NCBI GenBank assembly: GCA_001829185.1
Contig: MIAR01000041.1
Coordinates: 1 to 60,893 of the forward strand
Source of the DNA: Spirochaetes bacterium GWB1_60_80
GTDB lineage: Bacteria > Spirochaetota > Spirochaetia > Treponematales > UBA12059
Length of the DNA stretch: 60,893 nucleotides
Direction of reading: 5' to 3'
Below are positions 1,653 through 59,425 of this stretch, piece by piece. The notes beneath the pieces were generated by a model. That model searched no databases. It was given only the letters and a program-made list of their open reading frames with translations, and was not told where the DNA came from. The position numbers and the translations under genes are program-made. The number at the start of each line of letters is the position of its first letter. The stretch's first letter is position 1.

Positions 1653-1723
1653 AAAAACGCACCAAAAGTTAAAAGAATGAATATCTCCGAAAAACCAGGT
1701 TTTCGTTGAAGAACCGGCACTAA

Positions 1724-1852
1724 CAGGTTGTTGAAAAAGCCGGTTGCTTTCTCAACAACCTTAACAATTCCTCGCATAGCTTGCGCTATGCTGCGTAATT
1801 GTACCGGCTTTTGAAGTGTTGAAAAGCCGCATCCGCGTTTTTCAACACCCTG
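1724..1852. mobile_element. MITE-like palindromic element, copy A
   Basis: 129 bp, identical at every base to 59095-59223. The ends are imperfect inverted repeats: the left end begins CAGGTTGTTGAAAAA and the right end, read on the other strand, CAGGGTGTTGAAAAA. It is flanked by CTAA at 1720-1723 and 1853-1856, a 4-bp target duplication. Inside are three nested hairpins, including GCATAGC-TTGC-GCTATGC in the centre. It carries no transposase, so it would need one in trans. The YTAR target fits IS5-type transposition by family knowledge. The apparent extended start of the following ATPase gene (from 1816) is only the translation of this element. Confidence 0.85.
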
Positions 1853-1917
1853 CTAAGGGGTTCTTCTGTTTTTTGGTAGACGATAGACTAAGCTGCGTTA
1901 GAATAAAGGTAGGAAAC

Positions 1918-58797: not shown

Positions 58798-59425
58798 TTA
58801 GAAAGCCGCAATAGTGCAGCCGGGCGTCAGGTAGGCCATATCTAACAGGGCCTTTTACGGGCAGGTCATGAAGATACCTGGCTACCCATAGTCACTTCTT
58901 CATAACTCCCAGAAGAGGGCGGGCTTGATAGGGCGATAGCTGATACGGCCGGCTGGCGTTTCGACCAGTTGTGGTCGACCGGTGGACACGCAGGTGATTT
59001 CCGGCACGTATTCCGGAAACAAGCCGTGCCAGGCTAGCGGGGATTGCAGGCTGACGCAGGCTGCCGGCTTGATCTGGCAAGCCACCACCATTAGCAGGTT
59101 GTTGAAAAAGCCGGTTGCTTTCTCAACAACCTTAACAATTCCTCGCATAGCTTGCGCTATGCTGCGTAATTGTACCGGCTTTTGAAGTGTTGAAAAGCCG
59201 CATCCGCGTTTTTCAACACCCTGTTAGGTTAAGTCGGTTTTTCGGTAGGGTTCGGCTAGGCTGTACCAGCCTTTGTGCAACCGCACTATCCGGCGCTGCG
59301 TACCCACCGGCTGAGCTGGACCCGCACCTGAAGCAGGTTTTCCCCAGCGGTAACCAATCCCGGCGTGAAGTAGTGCAGACTGACGGTCAGTGCCACCAGT
59401 TGCTCGAATTTTATTGCACTTGTTT
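58798..59425 (-). pseudogene. AbiEi-like antitoxin gene, disrupted
   Basis: Pieces of a type IV antitoxin/abortive-infection regulator (AbiEi, COG5340-like) appear in order but in different frames. 59425-59279: winged-helix part ending QVRVQLSRWVRSAG, then a stop. About 59287-59224: RIVRLHKGWYSLAEPYRKTD. Then the 129-bp MITE. 59093-58900: ACVSLQSPLAWHGLFPEYVP, STGRP, ETPAG and YRPIKPALF. About 58860-58798: KALLDMAYLTPG. Two or three frameshifts plus the insertion make it non-functional. No AbiEii toxin gene is seen. Identification is from memory of the family pattern. Confidence 0.7.
59095..59223. mobile_element. MITE-like palindromic element, copy B
   Basis: Identical to 1724-1852 over all 129 bp and in the same orientation. 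Flanked by TTAG at 59091-59094 and 59224-59227, a 4-bp target duplication different from copy A (CTAA) but its exact reverse complement. It is inserted in the AbiEi-like pseudogene. Being direct repeats, the two copies could recombine and remove the 57 kb between them. Confidence 0.87.

Follow-up and report, generated by a model that had tools for sequence, protein, structure and literature searches.

The window analysed here, a stretch of 60,893 nucleotides, contains two copies of a 129-bp element, at 1724-1852 (copy A) and 59095-59223 (copy B), both on the forward strand and without a single difference between them. The second copy lies exactly where the original prediction had placed it. 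Each copy sits within its own 4-bp target-site duplication, to which no strand is assigned: CTAA, a YTAR motif, at 1720-1723 and 1853-1856 around copy A, and TTAG at 59091-59094 and 59224-59227 around copy B. Reading both sides of each copy confirmed that the two duplications differ, as had been claimed. The inverted ends described earlier were likewise found in both copies. In copy A the left terminal inverted repeat, CAGGTTGTTGAAAAA, occupies 1724-1738 on the forward strand, its first 14 bp being the same as in end B of the IS5-type element of this genome (see below), and the right one, CAGGGTGTTGAAAAA, occupies 1838-1852 on the reverse strand. The element has no ORF of its own; the ORFs that overlap it only begin inside and then extend into the flanks.

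Internal folding into three hairpins, another part of the original prediction, was recovered by structure prediction at -49.7 kcal/mol (z = -5.9), an energy that no shuffled sequence equalled. In copy A, terminal hairpin 1 (1725-1761) is formed by the terminal repeat pairing with an inverted copy of itself. It is followed by a central hairpin with an internal loop (CCTCG ... TGCG; 1764-1802) and by terminal hairpin 3 (1816-1847); all three are supported by fold prediction and alignment and are placed on the forward strand.

The assembly that holds the window comprises 3.6 Mb in 59 contigs. A pattern search of the whole genome for the 129-bp sequence, a step proposed together with a tabulation of flanking tetranucleotides in the original prediction, returned 136 copies with at most three mismatches, or about one per 26 kb, and a control search with the pattern read backward over the same genome gave 0 matches. 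Zero divergence, as first stated, holds for the window pair and for the 107 identical copies among the 136, but not for the remaining 29, which carry one to three mismatches. Both flanks were read for 103 distinct copies, the others being counted, mostly without individual reading. Equal tetranucleotides bound 100 of the 103 on both sides, and 99 of these pairs are YTAR (CTAG 43, TTAG 22, CTAA 18, TTAA 16), with a single GTAG; about 30% of copies would be expected to have equal flanks if these were independent YTAR draws. The three exceptions (a joint in a 422-bp tandem array, one TTAG/CTAG copy and one TTAG/TTAA copy) are consistent with recombination between MITE copies. Five further copies with one mismatch all carry C110T and have the flanks TTAA/TTAA, TTAG/TTAA, CTAG/CTAG, CTAG/CTAG and CTAA/CTAG. 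Overall, the element is short and gene-less, with inverted ends, target duplications and many near-identical copies, the features by which a MITE is recognised.

These flanks bear directly on two other accounts of the repeat. The copies might stem from a duplicated chromosomal segment, an assembly artefact or a gene-converted repeat instead of separate insertions, and a 422-bp tandem array does surround one MITE copy on contig 11; the 100 flank pairs are all distinct, with a separate duplication at each, which makes this very improbable. Gene conversion may contribute to the identity among copies. A second alternative, REP/BIME-type repeats mobilised by a single-strand (HUH) transposase of the RAYT type, in which YTAR would be a tag and not a duplication, is scarcely credible either. 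The likeness is real insofar as hairpins with a foot tetranucleotide resemble GTAG-tagged REPs (PMC3733652), and REP/REPIN elements (PMC3733652, PMC3116915) are likewise short, palindromic and repeated many times, with a tetranucleotide at each hairpin foot. Here, however, the tetranucleotide varies among copies, yet the two sides of a copy agree in 100 of 103 cases, which fits staggered DDE insertion and not a fixed tag, and every copy is bounded by inverted ends. Unlike REP/REPIN, this MITE has true, copy-variable 4-bp duplications, a central hairpin between two terminal ones, and an IS5-type partner. The RAYT/REP reading was rejected, since a fixed one-sided tag without duplication is contradicted by the variable two-sided tetranucleotides.

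Neither a MITE copy nor an IS end was found in the same-genus genome G001. Given that no MITE copy occurs there, the burst is probably lineage-specific, and we infer that it was recent and confined to the source lineage. The phage and plasmid collections searched gave no match to the MITE.

A number of unusual copies were also noted. At L022 (G000:C11:23555-24527), a 422-bp segment is repeated three times in tandem with one MITE in each, probably via recombination. At three loci (L010, L019 and L020, ~1263-1496), a 233-bp repeat bounded by GGAGTCTGTCGGGCTTTGG ends has a MITE inserted right at its edge. Solo-hairpin mini-elements (about 46-53 bp), each consisting of a single MITE terminal hairpin between CAGG-like ends, lie at L105 (~1478-1523), L097 (~1473-1518) and L008 (2215-2263). 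A longer variant, at L025 (1258-1419, 162 bp) and L099 (1501), has the central hairpin plus a paired 19-bp stretch (TTCGCCAGAGTACTGGCGC) on both arms.

Insertions are unevenly distributed with respect to open frames. Frames of at least 300 codons hold 6% of MITE sites versus 40% of the YTAR sites in the window (p = 3e-10), and about 29% of MITE sites versus 14% coincide exactly with the stop codon ending a frame of at least 130 codons (p = 0.003). At such insertions the stop is kept because the duplicated YTAR restores it. Stop-codon targeting was considered as the main insertion rule and set aside, the enrichment being only two-fold; it probably reflects purifying selection rather than site choice.

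Searches of the source genome's assembled contigs with DDE_Tnp_1 and DUF772 found no transposase, because the IS that would carry it is collapsed at contig breaks. Five contig ends break inside a left IS end, end A, which begins CAGGCTGTTGAAATT… and continues through an RBS into an ORF starting MRGFEEKQVDAF… (CAGGCTGTTGAAATTCTCAAATTTG...GGAGGGGCAGT-ATG-CGTGGATTCGAGGAGAAGCAGGTTGATGCATTT). Five other contig ends break inside a right end, end B (CAGGYTGTTGAAAATT…; CAGG(T/C)TGTTGAAAATTACACACC...). All ten adjoin YTAR, and in this genome they read CAGG(C/T)TGTTGAAA(A/T)TT, accompanied by the start of the transposase gene. At the A ends the duplications read CTAA, CTAA, TTAA, CTAG and TTAG, the same set as at the B ends when taken on the same strand, a coincidence with a chance of about 0.03; five A ends and five B ends with matching sets thus point to about five copies of one collapsed IS. 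When the flanks from contigs C6 and C2 are joined, a frame is open over 199 codons. The IS is seen as about 95 bp per end in this assembly, and its transposase as the first 12 codons only. Family searches were negative and contig ends revealed the element, which illustrates how a partner IS can hide in assembly breaks.

The original prediction had called for a matching transposase-bearing IS elsewhere in the genome, and its ends and the start of its transposase gene at ten contig breaks bear this out. Ends matching the first 20 bp of the MITE had also been foreseen; an IS was indeed found, but the match covers only some 13-14 bp, namely 13 at end A and 14 at end B when variable position 5 is allowed for, with divergence beyond. 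Internal deletion of this IS does not account for the MITE. No other IS with CAGG-TGTTGAAA ends was found among 118 contig ends or by pattern searches of the genome.

Other repeats also interrupt this assembly. At L171 (G000:C7 end), an IS copy, seen by its B end, has landed within the terminal sequence of a second copy, at an internal TTAA there. Two further repeat families, CCCCATGGTAGAGTCTACTCACAGGGCTAG (L108, L109, L118 and others) and CCAGGAAACTCTAGTCCAAGCTTATCC (L115, L122, L134 and others), both with TTATGAGKCAAC motifs, coincide with assembly breaks at dozens of contig ends and are probably large multi-copy insertion sequences.

Family assignment of the IS draws on its relatives. The IS end followed by MRG(M/N)EEKQIDAF also occurs, likewise cut by contig ends, in Spirochaetes bacterium RA.bin110 (G014; same family as the source), where the related end begins MRGMEEKQIDAFCYIS, and in Spirochaetaceae GL140_3_metabat_44 (G065; same order), where it begins MRGNEEKQIDAFSYVS; both records were matched at 100% identity. 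G014 carries the MITE as well as the IS end. The MITE-rich relatives G005 and G051 yielded no IS in their fragmented assemblies, and no CAGG-TGTTGAAA ends adjoin the DUF772 transposases found in relatives. In a scan of named genomes, Gammaproteobacteria, spirochaetes, Myxococcota and others had the same IS end together with a start codon. Intact related IS in other bacteria measure 1299-1339 bp, have equal YTAR duplications on both sides and encode a transposase of 360-379 aa. The relatives' transposases match PF05598 (DUF772), PF01609 (DDE_Tnp_1) and NCBIfam NF033581 'IS5 family transposase', the last with 276.6 bits against a cut-off of 140 for a full-length relative sharing the IS end and N-terminus. 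YTAR is a documented IS5 target motif (PMC10359306); this literature and the 99 YTAR-flanked copies uphold the earlier attribution of YTAR to IS5-type elements. By way of its full-length relatives, the partner in the source genome, whose own ORF is visible as MRGFEEKQVDAF only, is therefore best regarded as a putative IS5-type IS.

Taken together, copy number, YTAR duplications and IS ends in the same genome support the original reading of the 129-bp element as an IS5-type MITE, which appears to have been moved in trans by the IS5-family transposase of the same genome (probability about 0.88). The transposase would recognise the roughly 14 bp common to both MITE ends, excise or copy the MITE, and insert it at YTAR with duplication of 4 bp. 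IS5-family elements (NF033581 transpos_IS5_4; DUF772 + DDE_Tnp_1) have the same YTAR target, 4-bp duplication and end sequence CAGGNTGTTGAAA; the MITE differs from them in lacking a transposase gene and in agreeing with the IS over only some 14 terminal bp. A less likely course of events is amplification by a different, closely related transposase with ends CAGGKTGTTGAAAAA, now lost or located in the unassembled ~4% of the genome, in which case the visible IS would be a cousin. The MITE ends do diverge from both IS ends at position 14-15 and onwards, and from most of them at position 5; related IS are numerous in other phyla, and this assembly contains no intact copy of any multi-copy IS. Against this stand the single IS with CAGG-TGTTGAAA ends detected at contig ends and by pattern, the target and duplication that it has in common with the MITE, and the 14 bp in which end B and the MITE agree. 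With mobilisation by the visible IS as the preferred reading, the genome offers a clean example of a MITE burst, recent and limited to one lineage, alongside a plausible partner IS.

Bacterial MITEs such as Correia/NEMIS, RUP, ERIC and Chunjie have been reviewed (PMC10969869, PMC2229807). Like the present element, they are short and gene-less, have inverted ends and a target duplication, are mostly intergenic, form hairpins and reach high copy number. In contrast to them, each end of this MITE is a hairpin of two facing terminal-repeat copies, the target is YTAR, the copies are unusually uniform (107/136 identical), and the three-hairpin plan is conserved across genera with covariation. Elements of this kind are already known; what stands out here is the covarying scaffold.

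MITE relatives at 70-79% identity were found across several genera, and many of them are flanked by a YTAR duplication of their own. A MAFFT alignment of 19 revealed changes on both sides in 17 of 35 pairs, with 96.7% of cells paired and shuffles and slid structures far below. These paired changes include the central helix, which is no terminal repeat; because this helix too is kept by paired changes across genera, the hairpins appear to be more than a by-product of the terminal repeats. A covariance model detected further three-hairpin members in other families of the class, among them 16 matches in G046, with ends GGGGCTGTC where read. Relative to the window copy, the G008 element at L421 retains 35/35 pairs with 19 double changes, and those in G150 and at L417:4684 are similar. 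Pair counts from the model-fitted alignment lean towards structure, a bias from which the MAFFT alignment is free. Copies with diverged stems have missing or eroded CAGG ends and YTAR duplications, while their loop and linker motifs persist. Conservation of unpaired versus paired positions was 0.75 versus 0.53 (p = 0.01) in one same-genome comparison and weaker in most others. G-U pairs are rare throughout. Rfam returned nothing at the gathering threshold for the three-hairpin element, and its sub-threshold matches, which looked like chance matches to hairpins, were discarded.

Covarying stems may reflect selection for DNA or RNA structure, or arm-to-arm template correction. One version of this, in which selection for the fold comes first and mobility second, would make the element a structured RNA or a regulatory element such as a bidirectional terminator or processing signal; it is improbable. 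The three helices conserved across genera, with both-sided changes in 17/35 pairs and 96.7% of cells paired, speak for it, as do the diverged intergenic copies that retain 33-35/35 pairs with up to 19 double changes. Yet the copies in the source genome are recent, near-identical, dispersed and flanked by target duplications, which is mobile-element behaviour; nearly every copy has just 0-1 G-U pairs, which is not typical of RNA helices; and no Rfam family reaches the gathering threshold. We advance somewhat less hesitantly, and still only tentatively, the proposal that the spirochaete class has long kept the three-hairpin plan as a structured element under selection, one that reaches beyond transposon ends, with IS5-type ends as one of several vehicles. 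This proposal stems from the persistence of the linkers and central internal loop while paired changes, with G-U nearly absent, replace the stem sequences, and from ends that differ by genus: CAGG..TGTTGAAA with YTAR here, GGGGCTGTC in G046 and unrelated stems in single G008 and G150 copies. On this proposal the structure would act either in DNA, through a cruciform or through a hairpin that can form on each strand, or as a signal at the 3' ends of genes. A covarying plan in several families of the class, with no Rfam gathering-threshold match, lets one ask whether MITE hairpins are selected, and whether at the DNA or RNA level.

The three-hairpin elements of G008, G150 and G046 lie between genes where checked, and most lack both CAGG ends and YTAR duplications. 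Plan and linkers are the same, with stems that are unrelated yet remain paired, in G008 at L421:2729-2859 and L417:4684-4812, in G046 at L426-L428, and in G150 at L424:18378-18504, L424:18896-19037 and L425:16211-16349.
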